Part shown: in pieces, positions 21,807-63,110 of the stretch
How positions within the stretch are numbered: the stretch's first letter is position 1
Layout: the number at the start of each line of letters is the position of its first letter
NCBI GenBank assembly: GCA_963971425.1
Contig: OZ020521.1
Coordinates: forward strand, 9,999,519 to 10,063,518
Origin: Bryoerythrophyllum caledonicum
Lineage: Eukaryota; Streptophyta; Bryopsida; Pottiales; Pottiaceae
Direction of reading: 5' to 3'
Length of the DNA: 64,000 bases
Translations under genes and position numbers: made by a program
Notes under the pieces: generated by a model
What the model saw: only the letters and a program-made list of their open reading frames with translations
Databases searched by the model: none
What the model was told of the DNA's origin: nothing

Positions 21807-21938
21807 CTTAGTCCTATGAATTGCGGCTCTCCGAGCTGGCTTATCAAGTCATTTCTCAACGCCCCTGGCAAACGTCGACTGTTAGCTGCTGCGTACCGTG
21901 TGATCCACCGTGAGCTTTAACTTCTCGATCGGTCAGCG

Positions 21939-23765
21939 ATGGCGAGACTCGCCCCGCCGCCGAAGTCGTTTGAGGAGGCGTACTTGCCGACGGCGACAGA
22001 CGCTCCGTCGCCGAAGTCGTTTGAGGAGGCGTACTTTCCGCTGAAGCTGAGCGACGCAGTGAAGCAAGGGACAAGGGAGAACCCGTATGACATTGTGATC
22101 GTGGGGACGGGGATGGGGGGAGGCGTGCTGGCCGGAGCGCTCTACGACGCCAACCAAGAACTCGGGGACAAGATGAAGAAGAGGATACTGGTGGTGGAGA
22201 GGGGAGGCCTGCTCTTCCATTCGCACTGTCTCAATACCTCCAGGCCCCCTGGTTTGCTCACGAACCGCGGCCAGCAGAACGACAGATTCTACGCTACGTT
22301 CAAGGACAACAAAGCGTGGACGATCAAGACGGATGGTGGCGCCAAAGATAATTGGGCAGGAGGGCCGCTCTACTGCTTGGGCGGGAGGAGCTGCGTGTGG
22401 GGCCTGTTTGCCCCCCGTCCCCATGTCAAGAGCCTGAAGAGTCACTTCCCATACGATGTGTGCCAGGACTTACACAACAAGTTTTTCCCTAAAGCGGAGG
22501 ATTTGATGAAGATTTACTCGCCCAAGACCAAACCTGTGCACCAGGCTCTCATGGACCACCTCAACATGGCGAACTACCTGGACGACACCAATTTAGGCGA
22601 GGCTGGAACTGAGCTGCAGTGGGAGTGGGGTAGGATCGCATCCGAGTTCTCAGACGAGAGGAACTTCGATTTTGCGGAGGGCGCCTACAGCACTGTGGAC
22701 AAGCTTCTGGAGATTGCAATGACCAATAAGGAGAAGAAGGACGCTGCTGAGAAGGAGGGCCGGAAGAAGAAGGATGCCAAGTTCCAGATAGTGCTGAATG
22801 CGAAGGTGATATCTCTAGAACCGGATCAACCCGACCACAAGGAGATGCACCCCTTAGTCAAGGTGGTTTTTGAGAATTGCAAGGACTTCACGTACAGCCG
22901 TCGCGTGGTGCTGTGCGCCGGAAGCGTGGAGAGCGCGGCAATCCTGCTTCGAAGCCCCGAAATCCTGCCTCAAAGCCCCAAAATAGTGCCGACGATAAAT
23001 ACACCCATCACGGATCACAACATTTATGGTGTGGTGGTGAAGTTCAAGTACGCCAACGAGGCGGATAGAGCCAAGATTGGACCGATGAAGCTGCAGACCT
23101 ACTTCCGTTTCGGTAATAAGAACGACTTAAACAATGCAGACAAAGACTTGATCGCGATTGCCAATGTGACCATCGACGTAGCGTCATTCCTTCCGAGGCA
23201 GAAGGCACCCGATAACAATGCGGATCCTGAACTCATTGTCACCTTCATCCTCCCTGCCGACCTCAACAAAGTCGACCATATCGACGCCACAAAGTCCACG
23301 CTCACCGTGACAATCAAGAGGGAACCCAATGTAAAGAAGAGAAAGGATATCATGTTTAGAATGGTCAGGGACATTCTCAAAGGTGTTAAGGAAGTGTTAA
23401 AACTCCAGATAAAGGATGACCCGAAGGAAACAGATCTTGTGCTGCTGCCACTTGGTGCGGTGGCTCACGAACTCGGCAGCTTGCCTATGCCTGGAGGGTC
23501 AGAGAAGTCGGAAGCTGGTCATGAGGCGGTTGTCGACGAGAACTTGAACGTGATAAAGCGCGTGGACAAGCGCGCGGACAAGAAGGGGACCCACTGCAAG
23601 CAAGAGACCTGGCCAATCTCGGTGTGCGACCTCTCCGTCTTCCCCTTCTCGCCCGCTGCCAATCCTTCGCTTACGCTCGCTGCGCTGGCTCTCAGGTTGG
23701 CATACCAGCTTGGTGCAGAACATGGACATGGTGGAGGACATATGCATGTTGTAGGACATGTTTAG
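21939..23765 (+). CDS. GMC-family FAD-dependent oxidoreductase, intronless
   Basis: 608 residues in one exon, about the usual length of the glucose-methanol-choline family, which oxidises alcohols or sugars with FAD. The FAD-binding Rossmann motif YDIVIVGTGMGGG is at about residues 50-62. The GMC glycine motif is GGPLYCLGGRSCVWG (about 145-160). The catalytic His is in VAHELG (about 510) and the Asn in SPAANPSLT (about 574), inside the family's C-terminal signature DLSVFP..PAANPSLTLAALALR. There is no signal peptide. The N-terminus holds a duplicated decapeptide (PKSFEEAY twice), and the C-terminus ends in a His-rich tail (EHGHGGGHMHVVGH). It resembles microbial-type GMC enzymes more than HOTHEAD or long-chain alcohol oxidases; the substrate is unknown. 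A decayed partial copy lies at 25.2 kb. Confidence 0.85.
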   Translation: MARLAPPPKSFEEAYLPTATDAPSPKSFEEAYFPLKLSDAVKQGTRENPYDIVIVGTGMGGGVLAGALYDANQELGDKMKKRILVVERGGLLFHSHCLNTSRPPGLLTNRGQQNDRFYATFKDNKAWTIKTDGGAKDNWAGGPLYCLGGRSCVWGLFAPRPHVKSLKSHFPYDVCQDLHNKFFPKAEDLMKIYSPKTKPVHQALMDHLNMANYLDDTNLGEAGTELQWEWGRIASEFSDERNFDFAEGAYSTVDKLLEIAMTNKEKKDAAEKEGRKKKDAKFQIVLNAKVISLEPDQPDHKEMHPLVKVVFENCKDFTYSRRVVLCAGSVESAAILLRSPEILPQSPKIVPTINTPITDHNIYGVVVKFKYANEADRAKIGPMKLQTYFRFGNKNDLNNADKDLIAIANVTIDVASFLPRQKAPDNNADPELIVTFILPADLNKVDHIDATKSTLTVTIKREPNVKKRKDIMFRMVRDILKGVKEVLKLQIKDDPKETDLVLLPLGAVAHELGSLPMPGGSEKSEAGHEAVVDENLNVIKRVDKRADKKGTHCKQETWPISVCDLSVFPFSPAANPSLTLAALALRLAYQLGAEHGHGGGHMHVVGHV

Positions 23766-28014: not shown

Positions 28015-28062
28015 TCCAATTAGACCCTACGAGAGAGCCTTTGCTTTCAGTGGCCTTTGACC

Positions 28063-28907
28063 CTTCTTCTTCTTCTTCTTCTTCTTCTTCTTCTTCTTCT
28101 TCTTCTTCTTCTTCTTCTTCTTCTTCTTCTTCTTCTTCTTCTTCTTCTTCTTCTTCTTCTTCTTCTTCTTCTTCTTCTTCTTCTTCTTCTTCTTCTTCTT
28201 CTTCTTCTTCTTCTTCTTCTTCTTCTTCTTCTTCTTCTTCTTCTTCTTCTTCTTCTTCTTCTTCTTCTTCTTCTTCTTCTTCTTCTTCTTCTTCTTCTTC
28301 TTCTTCTTCTTCTTCTTCTTCTTCTTCTTCTTCTTCTTCTTCTTCTTCTTCTTCTTCTTCTTCTTCTTCTTCTTCTTCTTCTTCTTCTTCTTCTTCTTCT
28401 TCTTCTTCTTCTTCTTCTTCTTCTTCTTCTTCTTCTTCTTCTTCTTCTTCTTCTTCTTCTTCTTCTTCTTCTTCTTCTTCTTCTTCTTCTTCTTCTTCTT
28501 CTTCTTCTTCTTCTTCTTCTTCTTCTTCTTCTTCTTCTTCTTCTTCTTCTTCTTCTTCTTCTTCTTCTTCTTCTTCTTCTTCTTCTTCTTCTTCTTCTTC
28601 TTCTTCTTCTTCTTCTTCTTCTTCTTCTTCTTCTTCTTCTTCTTCTTCTTCTTCTTCTTCTTCTTCTTCTTCTTCTTCTTCTTCTTCTTCTTCTTCTTCT
28701 TCTTCTTCTTCTTCTTCTTCTTCTTCTTCTTCTTCTTCTTCTTCTTCTTCTTCTTCTTCTTCTTCTTCTTCTTCTTCTTCTTCTTCTTCTTCTTCTTCTT
28801 CTTCTTCTTCTTCTTCTTCTTCTTCTTCTTCTTCTTCTTCTTCTTCTTCTTCTTCTTCTTCTTCTTCTTCTTCTTCTTCTTCTTCTTCTTCTTCTTCTTC
28901 TTCTTCT
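28063..28907. repeat. Perfect (CTT)n/(AAG)n expansion, 845 bp, about 281 units
   Basis: Every printed line from 28063 to 28907 keeps the exact triplet phase with no interruption that I could find. The six frames give Leu, Ser and Phe (plus) or Lys, Arg and Glu (minus) homopolymers, which should not be taken as genes. Long GAA/TTC tracts are known to form triplexes and to cause silencing (Friedreich ataxia FXN; IIL1 in Arabidopsis Bur-0). Confidence 0.95.
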
Positions 28908-30897
28908 GTAGTATAAACCTTCCAACCTGTTGAATCATAATTTTAAAAAAACTTGAGAATTTATTTTTTCAATAGTCTACACAAAGATCCTATGGTTAAA
29001 ACTAAAAGGAAACAATTTTTTCCTCCTTTTTGCTCTTTGAAATAGTATAAGTAGTTTCAAGGTGTTTTTGGTGACAAAGAATCAAGGAACTTTGGAAATT
29101 AATATTCCCTCAAATCCTTTTGAAAAATTCCATGGATAGGACTTTCCTAAAACATCCTTATTATACTTGATTAAAAGTGACTTTTATAAGTGCTGTGATG
29201 CCTACAAAAACCTACAATCATTTTATTTAGCTTTAAAGCCTTTAAAACATATTGTACATGATCATCTTCAAACAAAACTTTTTGAAATTTTAGATAAACA
29301 AGTTGAAAATCCAAAGTACTAATAGATTAACATACTTGCATCTTTTCACTTGTTGTGGTATGATTTGTCTAATAAAGGATTATTGAATCAAACATGCTTC
29401 TTATGCTCAATTTGAGCTAAAGATGATTTCCACTATCAACCCTTCAGTGTACATGGTATTGTAGCCAAGAACTTTAATTTTCAATTAATTCCTTTGAGAA
29501 GTGAAAAATGAAATGTCTGATTTTAATATCCAATTTGAATGGAATATTACTTCATCAATGAATAGAATGTTCCAAAAAAACTCACATTTTAAATAGAAGA
29601 GGCTTAGACATGAACTAGGTTGATGCGCTACTAGCTTCACAATGACACACAAGACATGAAGTAAACATTTATGAATAATTTCTAATGGTTTTTCATCTTT
29701 TATCTACTTGATTATACACTAAAATATTCCAAAACTCATGCCCAATAAGAAGGGAGTTTTGTAGATAAATAATAATGATCAACAATCACATAACAATGGA
29801 GTCTCTCAAAAATCAAATTTCAATCAAACCTTTAAACCAAAAGCAATTTCCATAAGTGTAAAATGAACTTCATAGTATGTGGTGTGATTTGTAGGCATTC
29901 ATTGTATTTAAGTGTATTGAACATGTTTGGCAAATATGTTCCAAAGTTTTCCAAGAGTTCTATAACTCCAAATCATGATCCAACTTTTGTAAAGTGTGTG
30001 CAAGGTAAACCCCCTGGTAACCAACCCAAATTCATAATCATCACCTATAAAATCATCACCTATAAAATTAGGGTATATCCAACCCACTTCCATCCCATTA
30101 CCACCCATTCACCCATCCAAACAGAGGTTCCCTATCCATCATAAACCCTTACTTTTGGTCAGCGCTTATGGGGTATCTATGGGCATAAACATGGAAACAC
30201 ACTTTGAAAATTCATAACTAATTCACATGTCATTAGAAAAATATGAAATCACTTGGGTTGAAATCGCAATTCTATTGGCTATCAATGAAAAATGAGTGTG
30301 TAATTCATTCCTCTCTCCATATATGCACATTGTTGAAGTTCTCAGTCATGGGGGGATACCTGAATGTGTGCAAGTCCACAATCTAGCTCCTCACGGATTT
30401 AGCACATGCAGAGACCAAAAACTGCATCTTATCACTTGTGCTCAACTTTCTTCAGCTAAAAATGATCTAACAGTACAAATAGAATCATGGAATCAACTCA
30501 ACTACTCCCTAGATTCGACACACCACAAAGAAAGAGAGAAAATTCATCCAGCAACTGAATGTTGTTATGAGGACAGATTGGGTCCATTTACAACATGCAA
30601 AACACGAACAGAACGAATCAAAAGAGCAAATCAAATACTTGCCACAAATTTCCACAAATGCAACGATGACCTGTATGCTACACGATATTCCACTAAAACT
30701 GGTGCTGCTACAAAATGACGCCACCAATTGTTCTCACGACAAAACAGGGAACTAGAGCTAGGTTTCTTGTATGAAACTGAAACGCTAAAAAGCGTGTGAG
30801 TTCCCGAAATGAAAGGAAACAATGAAAAGCTACGCCTTGAAAGAAGAAAGAACCCGCAGATAACCTAGTCAACCACATGAATGATAACCATACCAGG
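28908..30897. other. AT-rich intergenic region, no gene supported
   Basis: Only short frames with no recognisable protein content. A small direct repeat (ATCACCTATAAA twice, near 30038-30068) is present. Confidence 0.5.
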
Positions 30898-54792: not shown

Positions 54793-56552
54793 TCAATGTG
54801 CTAAACAATGTGGACACCACCATTGACCCACTAGAACCTCTAATAGAGGTGGGGTGAGACATTCTAGATGCCACCCCGTAGAACACAAGTCACAAATGAC
54901 CATTATGGAAGTCTGTTTAGCACTACCATACAACCGACATCACAATCCAGAAGAGATGTGAGAAAGCCCAGGGTGTATTGTGGCCATCTTTGTGTGACAA
55001 ATGACAAGGTGCACAATTGTGCATGTGATCCTTCCATACCTTACCATCACAACTCTCTTACAGTAACACTCCTGAGTTCTTTACCTCACGAACTTGTAAG
55101 ATCACCCGTCCCTCTGTCACATCCAAGGTAGTCGGTGCTACTTGTTGCAAATACACATAGTCTCCAGAAGTACAACGTTGCACTTGTGGTCGGTAGCCTC
55201 CTCTCCGTATTGTAGCACAGCGCAACGTATCCCGATGCTAAGCAATGGAGAGGTTCCTCAATGCCATAGGCATCATCCGCTTGAACTAATCCGCACGTTG
55301 GTCACACACTTGAGCCCACGTGTGTGGATTGTCCATGTTAACAATTATAGTGTCAACATCTGCCTGAATGGCCTTCGGTAACACTGAATGTCTTCTAAAC
55401 AAGAAATAAGAGAAAATGACGCCAATGATGTTTGCTTACTTTAACGGTAGCCCATGGCTATCCATGGTAGTTGCAAGTCTCAATCCTGGTGATGTCCCTT
55501 CTTTAAACTATACTTCTGAAGCCCACTCTTGAAGGTTTGCACCATATATTCTGCCAATCCATCCACTTTGAGGTGATCCCTCGAAGTACTGCCGTGATCT
55601 ATCATCGCTTGCTTACACAACGTTTGAAATTCATCAAAGAACTCATGTCCTTGGTCTGTAAGCACTTCCGCTGGAGCTCCTAAGCGACTCAAAACATTAT
55701 CAAGGAAAGAATAAATGGCTCTTTAACTGAACTTGTCATGCAAAGCTACCAACTCAATCCACTTCAAAAAAGTGTTCAATCATCACTAACACATACTTGT
55801 TGTGTCAAGGTGTCGCTAGCAATGGACCTGCAAAGTTCAAGTTCCATTGGTATCCTAAGCTCATAATTGGTAATGGTTGCAATTGTGGCATTGGAGCGTT
55901 AAAAGACGCTTGCACACGATAACACATCATGCACCGAGCCACCAAAGCTTGAACTTGTGATTGCATTCCTCGCCACCAATAGTGAAGCTGGGGCAAGTTG
56001 TAAGTCCTCCACACTCCAAAGTGCCCAAGGTCTTCATGCATGTCTTTGATAAGCTTCACTCTCACTAATGGAGACGGTACTACCTTTCGGATACCATCGG
56101 GCCACACTCTCAAAAGGTGAGTGCTCTCCCACACAAACTGTTTGGCTTGTTGTGAGACTTGATCTCTCTCTTTAGCGGACCACATAGGCACCACCTCTCC
56201 ATTCTTCAGAAACTGCATCATGTTCGTGTCTTCAAAAACGTCTTTGGCGCCCCCAGATTCTTCACCACCATCTTTATCTCCTATGGCGATAGTAGTTTCT
56301 CCGGTGTCATCTCTACGCATTGCTGATACACATAGAAAGGCCACACAATGCCAATTTGACAACGGATCGGCCTCATTTTCACAGTGTCACCTAGCGCCCA
56401 TAGCATCCGCTTAGTTTGGAATTGGATTGCGACTAAGACCATCGGCATCCATATTCACCAATCGCGCTTTATGCACCACTTTGAAGTCGTACTCCATCAA
56501 CATCAAGCCTGTCGCGCTAGTTTCCTTGTCAGTTTGTCATATTTCATCAACC
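54793..56552 (-). mobile_element. Ty3/gypsy element, 3' part: end of RNase H, integrase and PHD-finger remnant
   Basis: Read from 56552 downward. The tail of RNase H ends with the conserved DADGLSRNP-type motif (about 56430). An integrase HHCC zinc domain follows (HEDLGHFG ... CMMC, about 55990-55920). Then comes the catalytic core with NLNFAGP (about 55840-55820, Asn where the family has the first catalytic Asp), VLTDQGHEF and DGLAEYMV (55690-55540), with LPWIAMGYR after it. Past further decayed sequence a PHD-type finger is readable (CDLCSTGWHLEC ... WWCPHC, 54939-54805), ending at TGA 54795-54793. Many stops and frameshifts break it. The rest of the element continues at 63103, on the far side of a nested transposon. 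No LTR was identified. Confidence 0.75.
56545..56552 (+). repeat. Target-site duplication, left copy (CATCAACC)
   Basis: This matches 63103-63110 exactly. Removing the element and one copy leaves the RNase H reading frame of the gypsy element continuous and matching its family at the junction. Confidence 0.9.
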
Positions 56553-57169
56553 CCCGGGGGGGTCACTTAGAAAATTTTATTAAACAACGTACGGCATAAT
56601 ATAGGGTGGTATTAAATCATGGTGTCCAAAAATTAAAAATCTTTGAGGTAATAAAGGGTGTTCAAATCGCTTCACACTCAATTATAAGTAATATATAGAG
56701 GTAAATAATGGGTCATATTCTTTTATTTTTTTAATCTAAAATACCCTGTAGGAAAAAGATATGAATAAAGTTTTTTTTATAGATTCAATTATTACTCTGA
56801 AAATGGTGCTTAGGATGGATGGAAACGGGTTGGTATGATGGATGGAAACGGGTTGGTATGATGGATGAATATGCGGGTTGGGGCTGGGATGGATGAAAAA
56901 GGAGATAACGGCGGAGTGGGGTCTTCTCTCTCACCTTCGCGTGAACAGCAAGCTGTGTGTTTGTGGCCGGGTTTTTCGAGTTGTGTTTCTGAGTGGCTGC
57001 AGTTTTTGAGCGCTCTTTTCATTTTCAGATCTTCTCGTGCTCTTGCTCCGTTAGGGTGCGTGCATAGATTTGGGGTTTCTGCAGAGAAAGGGTTTAGAGT
57101 AATCGCTTTGCTGTAGTGAAGTTGCTGCGCCGTGGGTTCTCCTTCACTTAGGGTTTTTTGCAGAGGTTC

Positions 57170-60100
57170 ATGGCAGCTCCGAGGGAGAGGCACGTGAAGT
57201 TGTGGACTCGGGAGCACGAGGATGCGGACGCTGAATACTTCGGGAAGGTGAAAGTTGGGGACTGTTTATCGTATGCCTCGTTACGGGAGAGGTTAGAGGC
57301 CGCAAAGGTTTTGGACTGGCCTTTCGAGTTCTGGAATGTTGAAGAGAGTTGCAAAATCCGAAAGAAGATCGAAGCTCTGAACGACATCCTCGAGGAGGTG
57401 CATGTGATACCTGTAGGCGATGGCAACCCTGTTCCAGCTAAGCGTCGGAGGTTGGAGGGTGAAACGCGTAGCGAATTCGAGCCCGCAGTCGACTCAGATT
57501 GCGGTCTTGGAGACCCTGAATCGCTGATTGAAGCGTCCGCCGAGCCTCTGGGATCTTCTAGGATTAGCGGCGAAGGTAACGACAGCGAAGAGAATGAGGT
57601 AAGTTGGAAATCTACTGTAAACCCTAAAGAAATCAGGGATCGATACATAAGGGCGGCTGAAAGATTGAGGAAGGATTCGAGGGATGTTTCACTTGAGGAC
57701 AACGGATGGGTGCTGAAATCGTGGGATCAAGATGGTGTGGGGATTGTCAAAGTATTTTGCTTGGAATGCAGTAAAGAATGCGGTGGTGATAGCGGAAGTC
57801 ATAGCAATACTACTGTCGCTAATCTGTTTTCAAATTTTAAGTCCAGTCATCTGACCAGTACCCAACATATTAAGAACTGGTGTCGGAAGCACAATGTGAA
57901 TTTCCTTGACCACCCCGCATCAGTCCCAACAAAGGGGAAAGCTGTTCCATTGTCTCCGAGCAGACACAAGGAGTTGATCAAGGAGGGGATTTCCATAATG
58001 GAGGAGGTGAATGAGGGACTTGATTTTGGTGTGCTGCCATTTTCTGTCGTGGGGAACGTTGAAACACCGAACCCTAAGAGTTTCTGGTTTAAGGTTAAGT
58101 GTCCCTTCTGCAAAGACTTGCTAAATCTCTGCCCTCCTAAGAGGAATTTGGAGGCGAATTTACGCAATCACATCGGAGGTTCGAAGCACATGATGGCGGT
58201 TGAAGAAGCTCAGAACCAGCTCTCAAAGTCGACTGGATTGCTTTCGGGGAGGCGTGGCAGGCCAAGTCGGTCATCCAACACAAGTGCTCACTCGAACCAA
58301 CCTGATTTTCATTCGTGGTTCAGTAACGGGAATTCAGGGGGCAACAGAGAAGGTAAGTATTTCACCGACGCCTTAGATGCGAATGTTGTGAAGGGTTTGA
58401 TGTGTTGGGGATTTCGGGCGTCTTTTTCGAATTACTACGGTGTTCCGTATGCTGTAAGAGGCTTGTTAGCGGATCAGATGTGTGGTGCTGCGTGGTTTAG
58501 TGAGCCGCACCTTTCTGCGTCTGTGATTGTCAATGGGCAGGTAGTAAACATTAATGGCGCGTTCAGGCATAGTGAATGTGTTAGGTTTTGTGCTGATGGG
58601 AAAGGCTTTCGGGACCTCACATGCTCAATGTGCGCTCAGATACCACAAGAAAATGATTTCAAGAAGAGGGTGTTCAGAGAGGACCGCTCAATCGATAAAA
58701 GGGGCAGTAGGACTACTTCCGGTGGTAGGAGAGTTGGGTACTTGACAGTTGCCGAGCTTGTTCGTCATGGCAGGGACATGAGGAAGAATTTGAGGTTAGA
58801 AAAACTAAACCATTGGTCTGCTAGAGCTAGGATAGTGCAGTTGAAGGTGAAACGGCCTACGCTTAAGGAGATGGCTAAACAGTCCTCTTCTGAGCATAAC
58901 TTGTTAAAGTTTTGCAATAATATTTTGAATGCTCATAGAACTGGTGCATTCGGAGGTAGAGTTGCGTTATGGGACTTTATCCAAGATGTTGCACAAAACC
59001 TGAATCGTGACAGTAGAGGGAATCGGTATAGCGACAACACTAAATCTTTCGCTCAGGTTATGAAGGTATACGGAGGTAACAGAATGTGTGACGTTTTTAG
59101 TTTGAATTATTGTGGATCAAATTATAGTACTATCAAGCGGGATCATGCTAAGGGTGTACAGTTCATTCCCGGTGAGCATTCTGAAATCTTTGCGGCTGCT
59201 GTAGAGATTTACAGAAACGCTAAAGCAGCGCATGGTATTACCGGACGAGTTCCTGTGATACTAGCTGAGGACGAGACGAAGGTGAGAGGTCGAGTCGCGT
59301 ATGAGCCCAAGTGGGATACGCTAGCAGGTTTTTGTGGTCCAAGTGATGATCATCAGTGTGTTTCAAGTTTTAAGCCTCTGGTGGGATCGGGAGAAGAAGG
59401 ATACAACAACATTCTTGACTCGTTCAGAACTAACAAAGTAGGGGGATTTGCTCGAGTTATTGTTGTGAATCCCATGCATGAAAGATTACCTCGTCTGGTC
59501 TTGGTTGCATGTTGCACTTGTAACTGTTTTGATTCAAGTTGGGTAAGGAGGCAATGGGATGTTATAGATGGATTGTGGGAAAAAGAATGCTTGAGTGTTG
59601 TTGGTCCTATTGTGGGTCACTCAAGTGATGGTGATTCACGTAGAAGGCAGTTAATGTTACAAGATTACCGCAGTACTGTAGGACCCCGTCTGTCGGCTAA
59701 CTCGGAGGGTTGGAATCTAACATCTGCTGTTGATGAACTTGGAAATGCCCGCAGCCTACATGACCAGGATTACATTCATAACGGAAAAAAACTAATCAAC
59801 CCTCTTCTTTCAGCGGTGCGTGTTCTGCAGCTAGGTGGGGATGTCTGTACACATGAGCACATGGGATTAGTATATAATCCTTTTACCGCTGACCAACATG
59901 GATTGAAGCACGAGGATGTTGATCGTAAAGATAGACAGAATTGGGCCTCAATCCAAAGAATATGTCAGCAAAAGGTAAGAACGTGCTTGAGACTCTTACG
60001 TGAGTCCCCGGATGTTAACAGGGAACGCACTCTAGGTACTAAGATGTATCTGGAGATTTGTGCAGAGTACATTGATATTTTTTGTTCATAGACAGTAGAT

Positions 60101-61663
60101 TTGCGAGGTAGAATTGTGCTGGCATCAAAGGTAAGTTTCTTCTTTCGCTTGTGGAAGTTATGGCTGAAACACGGAGATCACTCTGTCCTTGGAAATTCTA
60201 GGCATATGGTAGAAGCTCAGAATTTTGTGAGTCAACAGTGCTTCATAGATATTCAACTATCTTGTAGCTTTGTTGTGCTACTAATCTGTCATTTTAGGGA
60301 TCGTTATGCACACCTCCGTGTACCATTACACCTGACAGGTAGTGACTCCTGCGAGATTTTCATCTCAAAGATCGGTGGAATGAATGGTCAAGAGCGGGCG
60401 TACGATTTTCACGAACTTGTCAACACTGCCAACACTCTGAACTAGTTGTCGGCGATCGAGTACGGGGAGAACGGACTGAAATTCAACAACGTCCACAACA
60501 AGATGGAGAATATCTGGGCAAAACTGCACCCAGTAATGGAAGGAGAAGTGCAGAGCAATTTGGGTGATTAGAGCAAGATACCTTCAAATGTCGAAGTGGT
60601 GGAAGCGCTCCAGGAAGGCTTTGTAGAAGCCCAGCGGATGTTGAGAGGGCTCAACATGGCTCCAACTGTGCATGCCGCCGCTTCCAAAAAGGTATGGTTC
60701 AATAAACCATGGCTGATCGAGAAGGTGGACCCCAAATTCATGGCGTACACTCCCCCAGCAAGGCCTGTGCGTGGCGAAGACGGCGACGGTGAAGTGTTGC
60801 GAGAGGCCGCTGCTGCGTCTTCCTCGAATGCTGAAGGTACCATCGTTCCTTCTACGCTGAATCAGGATGTTGAAGATGAGATCCTTGACGATGATTTGGA
60901 TCCTCAAGTTGTCGTGGAGGACGAGACTCGGGATGCCATTTCCGACGTCTTGAGTGCACATGAGCCGCAGGTGTCCAGCCGTGTAGCACCGTCAAAAGTA
61001 CTTCCGGTCGTAGAATACGATGGTCATGTCATTTTTAAATCTACTCTTGTTTCACAACTTAATGGTAACCCTTTCCTCTCAAAGGACCGTCTGACGAGAG
61101 TTAAGCACTCAATATACTTTAACAACCATGATGATTATATCACGGCTGCTGCTTCTTCTAGCACATGTCTTCTAGGACTCGGATCGGATTGCGGGGTTTA
61201 CTTTGTGCAGAGCGCCAGCACCAGGACCACGTCAACAGTGAAGGTTGTGGCCCGTAGGAAGAGAGGACGGCCAAGTGCTGCCTCAAAGAGCGGGACCCCG
61301 ACGAATTGCCGTGAAGGAGGTGCAGATCACGGAACCTGGTGGATCGGCCGCGTGTAGAAGATTCGTCGCAAAGTTGGGGCTCAGCAGTGGGGTCTCTTGC
61401 GACACCTAGTCGACTTGCTTGACCGCACCGACACAACAGGGAGAAAGAATACTCGTCCATGCTCTCTTCAAGTTATGTTACAATACTTTAGTAAGGCTGC
61501 AGGTTTGAATAAGTTTAAGTACGATCACACTGATACTAACTAGATAGATGTTGATTCTATTATTACTACAGTGACTTTTTCAATCAATCCAGTTACTTCC
61601 GTGTACACTTTGAACCATGAAGATGTTGATGCTCTAAACAAGATTGTTGCAGATCGAAGTTAA
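57170..61663 (+). pseudogene. Transposase of the nested element, DDE-like, superfamily not recognised
   Basis: One frame of 1,498 codons from ATG 57170 to TAA 61661-61663, with no frameshift and five in-frame stops, all TAG: 60089, 60443, 60569, 61355 and 61541. The first 973 codons are open. Visible parts: two BED-like C2..H fingers (FCLEC at about 196-199; KCPFC at about 311-314, then NHIGGSKH); an AT-hook-like RRGRPSR (about 361-367); and candidate acidic catalytic residues AEDETKV (Asp701), SSDGDSRRR (Asp820/822) and HDQDYIHNGKKL (Asp865/867). Past the first stop come FRLWKLWLKHGDHS and GSDSCEIFISKIGGMNG; the C-terminus has a second AT-hook-like RKRGRPS (about 1362). I recall related uncharacterised proteins in plants and animals but cannot name the superfamily. 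The upstream TTG at 57158 is not used as start. Confidence 0.8.
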
Positions 61664-61753
61664 GCTTGGGCAACAAGTTTGATTTGTGGGATGTAGCCAA
61701 TTGATCGTTAAGCTTGTCTAAGTTGATCTAAGTTTGTCTAAATTTTTGCTTGG

Positions 61754-62302
61754 GTGTGCAAGAGGCCTGGTCTTAAATACCAGCAGCATGATTTGACTGC
61801 ATTCCAGGAGACCAGCGCTGCGTGCGTGGAGGGAATCCCCTACGGCCATCTAGTGCCGATCTTGGCAGCTCACTGTTTCGCGTCAAAGGATCTGTGGGAG
61901 CTCGACAATGGAGCTCGCGTTTTTAGACTGCGGACGATCCCCTTCGCGTTGGCCACCTGTAGGGAATGGCGCGGTATGCTGTCAACGTAGACGGAGTACG
62001 TAGCGCTCCGCTTGGCCGAGTTCCAGGTTACTGGAGCCACACTCCTCCATTCCACCAGCGCTGACGAATTTTTTGTGTCCAGGTTTGACTCCAACATCGC
62101 CCTGCTCTCGAAGTCGTGGGAGCTTCACACACCCATGCCGCACCGCCTCCGCACCGCGCCCCTCTCGGAGTTGTCGAACGTGGAGCTGGACGCGCTCGTT
62201 TGCAAGTTGTCGGCAGGTTGGCAGATTGAGGCGTTTGTGCCCCTAGGCACAGATTGGAAGCGCATGGAGCATGTGTGGGTGACCCCGTCCCTACGTGGCT
62301 GA
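61754..62302 (+). pseudogene. Second frame of the nested transposon, interrupted by one TAG
   Basis: Two open stretches, about 61754-61987 and 61991-62302, share one frame, separated only by TAG at 61988-61990, and end at TGA. The frame is the same as that of the transposase. The gap after the transposase TAA has several stops and could be an intron (possible donor GAA/GTTAAG near 61659, acceptor TGTGCAAG near 61767). The protein has no recognised motif. It could be a C-terminal exon of the transposase or a separate accessory protein. Confidence 0.45.
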
Positions 62303-63102
62303 CTCTCGTCACCGTAGGGATCCTTGCTGTTCCTTGTTTTTTCTCATTACCGGCCCAAGAGAACCTGTTTTTTTTTCCATTATTGTAGTATTTGTTTCAG
62401 CCCATGAGTATACTCTTCGTTTTCCACCGAATGTATAGACTAGTACAGGATTCAGCGCATGCGTGGAGGAACTCAGCTTTGATTTTGAACTGTAAAGGAA
62501 TTGTGTTTGTAAAGACACTCCCTAATGCATATATACTTCTTTGGGATCGTTTTTAGTCGTCTTCCTTGCATGTTGTGGTATGTTTGAGGAAGAGTACTCT
62601 TGTTCGTCATGTCTAAAGCCTGCTTTTGCTTCCTTGTATTTGATCCTTCATGAAATGGAAATGGAAAGGAGATTCATGGTCCTTAATTTGTTTTCAGAAG
62701 TGGAGGTTAGTGTATTGGATTGTGATCGTGGTTGTTATATTCGTTCTTTTCATATGGCGTTGTTTGATAGCTTTGTTGTGCAAATTTTGAGTCGAGCTTC
62801 GTCTGTAATACCTTGGTTTTTATCATGCTTCTATCATGAATGTGAAATTTTTGTCTTTAATCTTTAAAATTCACTTTTCTAATTTACTTTATTTTGTTAC
62901 AATAAATTAGGGGACTTAAAAATTGGTCCCCTCCTGAAATTATAAGTAATGATATGGACCTTAAAAACAAGAACAACTAGAAAATTAGGTAATGGAAGGG
63001 TCCATTTAATTAGTCCAGCCCATCAAAATACCCCCTAAAATATTCCCCTTGGCCGCACGTGATATACAACACCTCCTAAAGAGTGACCCCCCCCCCCCGG
63101 GC
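62303..63102. other. 3' non-coding end of the nested transposon
   Basis: An 800-bp stretch with no supported gene. It becomes AT-rich after 62850 and ends in the C13GGG right terminus. Confidence 0.5.
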
Positions 63103-63110
63103 ATCAACCA
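63103..63110 (+). repeat. Target-site duplication, right copy (CATCAACC)
   Basis: Identical to 56545-56552. Together they define the insertion site of the 6,550-bp transposon inside the RNase H codons for the TNNQPLKWLM segment. Confidence 0.9.

Follow-up and report, generated by a model that had tools for sequence, protein, structure and literature searches.

A transposon with G-run ends inserted in a gypsy element of Bryoerythrophyllum caledonicum, probably a THAP-less member of the P element superfamily

The stretch of DNA analyzed here (the window) comprises 64,000 nucleotides of Bryoerythrophyllum caledonicum (GenBank assembly GCA_963971425.1, contig OZ020521.1, positions 9,999,519 to 10,063,518 of the forward strand). 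Within it lies a DNA transposon that has inserted into a gypsy retrotransposon. An earlier note on this DNA described a complete transposon with G-run ends and an 8-bp duplication, and both ends and the duplication are indeed present in the sequence. Its account of the termini needed adjustment, as the right run is 12 C rather than 13, the right duplication ends at 63109 and the element measures 6,549 bp. The boundary features, all read from the sequence, are as follows.

56545..56552, no strand: left target-site duplication CATCAACC, also found at the empty site of the seven paralogues fetched
56553..63101, plus strand: whole transposon, 6,549 bp
56553..56567, plus strand: left terminal inverted repeat CCCGGGGGGGTCACT, with the same end in other copies
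56799..56867, plus strand: 23-bp subterminal repeat in three tandem copies, at 74% identity to the reference copy
63082..63101, minus strand: right terminal inverted repeat CCCGGGGGGGGGGGGTCACT, with 12 G
63102..63109, no strand: right target-site duplication CATCAACC

On the plus strand the right end reads AGTGACCCCCCCCCCCCGGG (63082-63101) and directly precedes a copy of CATCAACC. Two occurrences of CCCGGG-N0-12-GTCACT exist in the window, namely the two element ends, versus a mean of 0.02 in shuffled sequences. The host, a gypsy element, lies on the minus strand and has an integrase zinc-binding domain (PF17921) at 55808-56386. The earlier note had also held that removing the transposon makes the gypsy frame continuous. 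This is true of the junction, where the minus strand reads LLLVTNNQPLKWLMKYDKLTRKLARQA once the flanks are joined at a single CATCAACC; elsewhere, away from the junction, the gypsy copy contains stops and frame changes. The right flank has 40 matches listed in the genome, including the window copy, and the other 39 are 84-85% identical. Seven of these 39 were fetched, and all seven are uninterrupted with one CATCAACC, which bears out the note's idea of looking for empty sites in gypsy paralogues. Since the ends and duplication stand in the sequence and the paralogous sites are empty, the insertion is directly demonstrated, as are its boundaries and duplication.

The 437-Mb assembly (894 contigs) was then searched with the transposase. 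In this protein search 47 of 213 candidates were scored, making a copy number of 47 a lower bound. All 47 scored loci, the window copy included, match the transposase with 47-100% identity. The aligned part is free of stops in 10 of them, and four of these 10 lie within open frames of 1,404 to 1,557 amino acids. Further copies with such ends exist: the end pattern CYCGGGGGGGTSACT occurs 39 times in the genome, and its reversed control not once. The first 248 bp of the element gave 21 genome matches, of which 13 rows at least 95% identical represent 12 elements, counting that of the window.

Both ends could be read in 29 elements. L061 repeats L015, its insertion having been copied with the segment around it, so that 28 distinct insertions remain. 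The 8-bp duplication is perfect in 22, has one mismatch in four and is unmatched in two, and thus appears with at most one mismatch in 26 of 28. The script that scored duplications tolerated a shift of one or two bases per boundary, and without this tolerance L016 has one mismatch instead of none. Its table holds 27 rows; L028, L059, L061 and two other elements were read separately. The scheme of the ends, C[C/T]CGGGGG, a few bases and then CACT, is mostly kept across families and persists in L033, L034 and L035, which share only 47-48% protein identity. Right ends vary more (CACGGG, CTTGGG, CTGGGG). Of the 22 script-scored insertions, 21 start with C and finish with G, the exception being the shifted L016; the shortened element L078 starts with T. 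Elements with ends 36 kb and 9.9 kb apart have perfect duplications, and this spacing is presumably due to nested inserts. Perfect duplications also flank three shortened elements of 614 bp, 1.46 kb and 3.8 kb, which were compared by their ends alone and the last of which contains an insert of about 2.4 kb. This suggests that shortened elements were moved in trans by full-length copies. Separately, two copies about 100 kb apart (C8:20670113-20676968 and C8:20771538-20778412) have an identical target duplication, indicating a single insertion copied by segmental duplication.

The transposase gene runs in one continuous frame from the ATG at 57170 to the TAA at 61661-61663, and residues 5-1472 of a homologue, P0001, align along it with 53% identity (tblastn). 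The length of the transposase is about 1,490 residues. Coding features of the element are listed below, with conservation taken from a 66-row alignment (A2) in which rows gapped at a position were excluded.

57170..60088, plus strand: open part of the transposase gene, 973 residues to the first TAG, encoding the N-terminal region, both catalytic Asp and D-x2-H (from sequence)
57182..57424, plus strand: probable ubiquitin-like (beta-grasp) fold, residues about 5-85
57707..58225, plus strand: zinc-finger-like motifs CLEC...H...H and CPFC...H...H, residues about 180-352
59270..59272, plus strand: catalytic Asp 1 (AEDET), D in 65 of 65 rows with a residue
59627..59629, plus strand: catalytic Asp 2 (SDGDS), D in 62 of 63 rows
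59768..59779, plus strand: D-x2-H motif (DYIH), where the insertion domain starts, D in 61 of 62 rows (one C), H in 62 of 62
60089..60091, plus strand: first in-frame TAG, before the catalytic Glu (from sequence)
60092..61663, plus strand: same-frame continuation to the TAA, with four more TAG and no frameshift (tblastn with P0001)
60344..60355, plus strand: D-x2-E motif with the catalytic Glu (GSDSCE), E in 54 of 54 rows, D in 51 of 54
60443, 60569, 61355 and 61541, plus strand: first positions of the other four in-frame TAG (from sequence)
61742..62302, plus strand: possible second small reading frame of about 185 codons with one internal TAG (from sequence)

With five TAG codons, the first of them before the catalytic Glu, the window copy should make no full transposase. 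Over loci L001-L036, a count that takes one insertion twice (L015 and L017), there are 41 TAG, 13 TGA and 10 TAA stops, many at Gln or Trp positions. We therefore rejected recoding or programmed read-through of TAG, as stops scattered in this way are what decay predicts. The bias towards TAG may, at a guess, come from deamination of methylated CAG. Around 62053-62297, within the possible second reading frame, two family-B copies are 71-72% identical in DNA.

The catalytic residues are D346, D465 and E707 in the numbering of P0016, with the motif D512-x2-H515, and the window copy has the same residues. A passage of PMC8230255 gives the P superfamily a DDE triad (D230, D303, E531) followed, after beta 5, by a [C/D](2)H motif; both are found here. 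From the D-x2-H motif to the Glu there are 195 residues, versus 192 in DmTNP. D528, a GTP (guanosine triphosphate) contact of DmTNP that the consulted part of PMC7776569 places three residues before the catalytic Glu, corresponds to an Asp in 51 of the 54 rows not gapped there. A pairing of two further GTP contacts, D444/N447, with D566-x2-N569 was dropped, the distance from the Asp of D-x2-H within the insertion domain being 54 versus 105 residues. A conserved C-terminal region also extends beyond the P-like part (IYKSTLVSQLNGNPFLSKDRLTRV..., IGRVQK...), for example at P0001 residues about 1250-1475, and has no Pfam match.

Searches that scored about 8,000 candidates each yielded 45 relatives from the window protein and 125 from the profile, of which the best 120 were listed. 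No entry named as a transposase is among the relatives listed from either search. The few organism-named relatives among the matches listed include a brittle star, a mussel and a sea spider. P0144, from the best 120 of 125, carries a precomputed PF13359 domain, which we take to be a Harbinger-type DDE domain. Six peptide patterns found no relatives in IMG/VR.

Based on these observations, we consider it likely that the element, a decayed copy within gypsy, represents a family of cut-and-paste DNA transposons that branches deeply within the P element superfamily and lacks THAP. The predicted fold is a split RNase H interrupted by a P-like helical insertion domain. Its match to P (25.9) exceeds that to Hermes (8.8), and Transib, RAG, Hermes, Tn5 and others stand far below P, among the superfamilies in the list compared. 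An 8-bp duplication, as expected for this superfamily, was found in 26 of 28 insertions and confirmed by the seven empty sites. Two homologues pass the cut-off of PF21787 (TNP-like RNase H N-terminal domain), which the window protein does not match. Their scores are sums over repeated stretches, and the best stretches of both fall inside the part homologous to the transposon family, in the first-Asp region. Five of 48 further relatives match PF21787 up to E 1, the best at 5.1e-4. In the plant's own genome this family gave no match at E 0.01; control genomes likewise gave none, so this result is uninformative. Since PF21787 matches are sparse and P is absent from the sequence search of the PDB, the link to P comes mainly from the predicted fold and the motif. 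The earlier note had found the termini unlike those of hAT, P, CACTA, Mutator, PIF or Zisupton and suggested an undescribed or poorly described family, a reading that is partly supported. The ends are in fact unlike known P ends, yet the predicted fold, the DDE triad and the D-x2-H motif point to the P superfamily.

Several observations weigh against this placement. The structural model is that of a homologue, which has 58% identity to the window protein across 73% of the region searched, and a Pfam scan of the window protein matched no family. PF21787 went unmatched up to E 1 in 14 of 15 members of set A1, the remaining one matching at 0.062. Sequence searches of the PDB returned no transposase, and even a 66-member profile failed to find that of P. 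THAP was matched neither in the window protein nor in the long relatives P0001 and P0003 when these were scanned with Pfam, and the ends differ from those of P. The spacing between the two catalytic Asp is 119 residues versus 73 in DmTNP, longer by 46. Only D528 of the eight listed GTP contacts of DmTNP has an obvious counterpart; with the other seven unplaced, GTP use is an inference. Lastly, two of the 28 insertions (L004 and L055) lack a matching duplication.

Much of this would also fit a separate superfamily that has the insertion-domain RNase H plan in common with P only by deep descent and is to be named beside P rather than inside it. The protein without a Pfam match, the different N-terminus and ends, the failure to find P in the PDB and the 46 extra residues between the Asp all favor this reading, which we regard as unlikely while giving it a modest chance. 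An 8-bp duplication by itself would suit other groups. It is a trait of Novosib elements. It is also reported for Zisupton in the portion of PMC12730594 consulted. Nevertheless, the predicted fold matches P strongly, and no KDZ family is among the Pfam matches listed (one scan listing 25 of 33 families); we consider a Zisupton/KDZ or Novosib element very improbable, with the Pfam comparison bearing on KDZ and not on Novosib. A divergent hAT element would share both the 8-bp duplication and short inverted repeats. The Hermes fold match of 8.8 against 25.9 for P speaks against it, and the same Pfam matches include no hAT family, with no sign of the hAT C-terminal dimerization domain; we see hardly any chance for this reading. 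That no transposon exists at all, and that G-runs bracket a duplicated gene family by chance, has the low complexity of the ends as its sole point in favor. The empty sites refute it. The duplications in 26 of 28 insertions, the 39 pattern occurrences against none in the control, and the perfect duplications in shortened copies and in copies with nested inserts also speak against it, and its probability is negligible.

With placement in the P superfamily preferred, cut-and-paste movement is expected from the predicted fold, the triad and the duplication. We predict that a transposase of about 1,490 residues, with a split RNase H (DDE) fold and a P-type helical insertion domain, would bind element DNA through its N-terminal zinc fingers. 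The three 23-bp subterminal repeats are possible binding sites for it. The protein would pair the G-rich ends, cut them and excise the element, and the 3'-terminal G of each end would be joined to target strands at positions 8 bp apart, giving the 8-bp duplication. The near-constant 3'-terminal G is compatible with, and no proof of, a contact at the terminal base. If the analogy with the P element holds, GTP would be bound as cofactor by the insertion domain. The window copy would have jumped into the gypsy retrotransposon and then decayed, acquiring five TAG, while some related copies keep long uninterrupted frames.

Elsewhere the window contains a DUF4283 domain, presumably plant-type and just over its cut-off (27.7 versus 27.2 bits), and HAK/KUP potassium transporter exons, both of which suit a plant host. 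A 609-residue GMC oxidoreductase-like frame lies at 21936-23762 (plus strand). Its organism-named relatives among the 120 listed are all fungi, mostly basidiomycetes, the best being Tulasnella at 43%; judging by these similarities, it is possibly a fungal gene that entered a plant-like genome by gene transfer. An uninterrupted trinucleotide repeat of about 0.87 kb (28061-28933) has several open frames encoding poly-Ser, Leu, Phe, Glu, Lys and Arg. Rfam gave no match over the window at gathering score.

The P element, a founding model for the study of transposition, is known above all from animals, where it has a THAP domain. In the largely open-access literature searched, with Repbase and Dfam outside the search, we found neither P-type elements in plants nor such ends described; a prior description in a database or a subscription paper is possible. 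A 2023 review of plant transposons puts the number of DNA transposon superfamilies at nine, and the part consulted does not name P among them (PMC10741241). According to excerpts of PMC7776569, THAP is restricted to animals and P transposase is unique in its use of GTP as cofactor. A THAP-less P-type family with defined ends, many copies and some long frames offers an outgroup for ancestral P features, namely GTP, the long staggered cut (17 nt in P) and THAP. For annotation, C[C/T]CGGGGG...CACT ends with an 8-bp duplication provide a diagnostic. We tentatively suggest, at a little under even chance, that P-type, GTP-dependent transposition greatly predates the animal P/THAP9 branch and is much more widespread. 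In plants and marine animals there would then be a sister branch that lacks THAP, has G-run ends and carries zinc-finger motifs together with a ubiquitin-like N-terminus; it would have been recently active in this plant, and THAP would be a later gain on the animal side.

Like the Drosophila P element (6p5a, 6pe2), the family described here has an 8-bp duplication, a DDE triad, D-x2-H and D-x2-E motifs and, as modeled, an RNase H fold split by a helical insertion domain whose length is nearly that of P. In contrast, it shows no THAP match and instead has a probable ubiquitin-like N-terminal fold and zinc-finger-like motifs. The Drosophila P transposase has 751 residues, versus about 1,490 here, and the 2.9-kb Drosophila element ends in 31-bp repeats, whereas this one is 6.5 kb long with short G-run ends. 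One uninterrupted frame here contrasts with four spliced reading frames in Drosophila P, as described in a section of PMC7776569. The hAT, Zisupton/KDZ and CACTA/Transib-type elements are also DDE transposons, and 8-bp duplications are noted for hAT in part of PMC10741241; none of these superfamilies is among the Pfam matches listed, and the Hermes and Transib fold matches are far weaker than that to P. Zebrafish Pdre2/THAP9, as far as portions of PMC10983969 describe it, likewise has an 8-bp duplication, short inverted repeats (13 bp) and a P-type catalytic domain, and it differs in being an animal element with a THAP domain.
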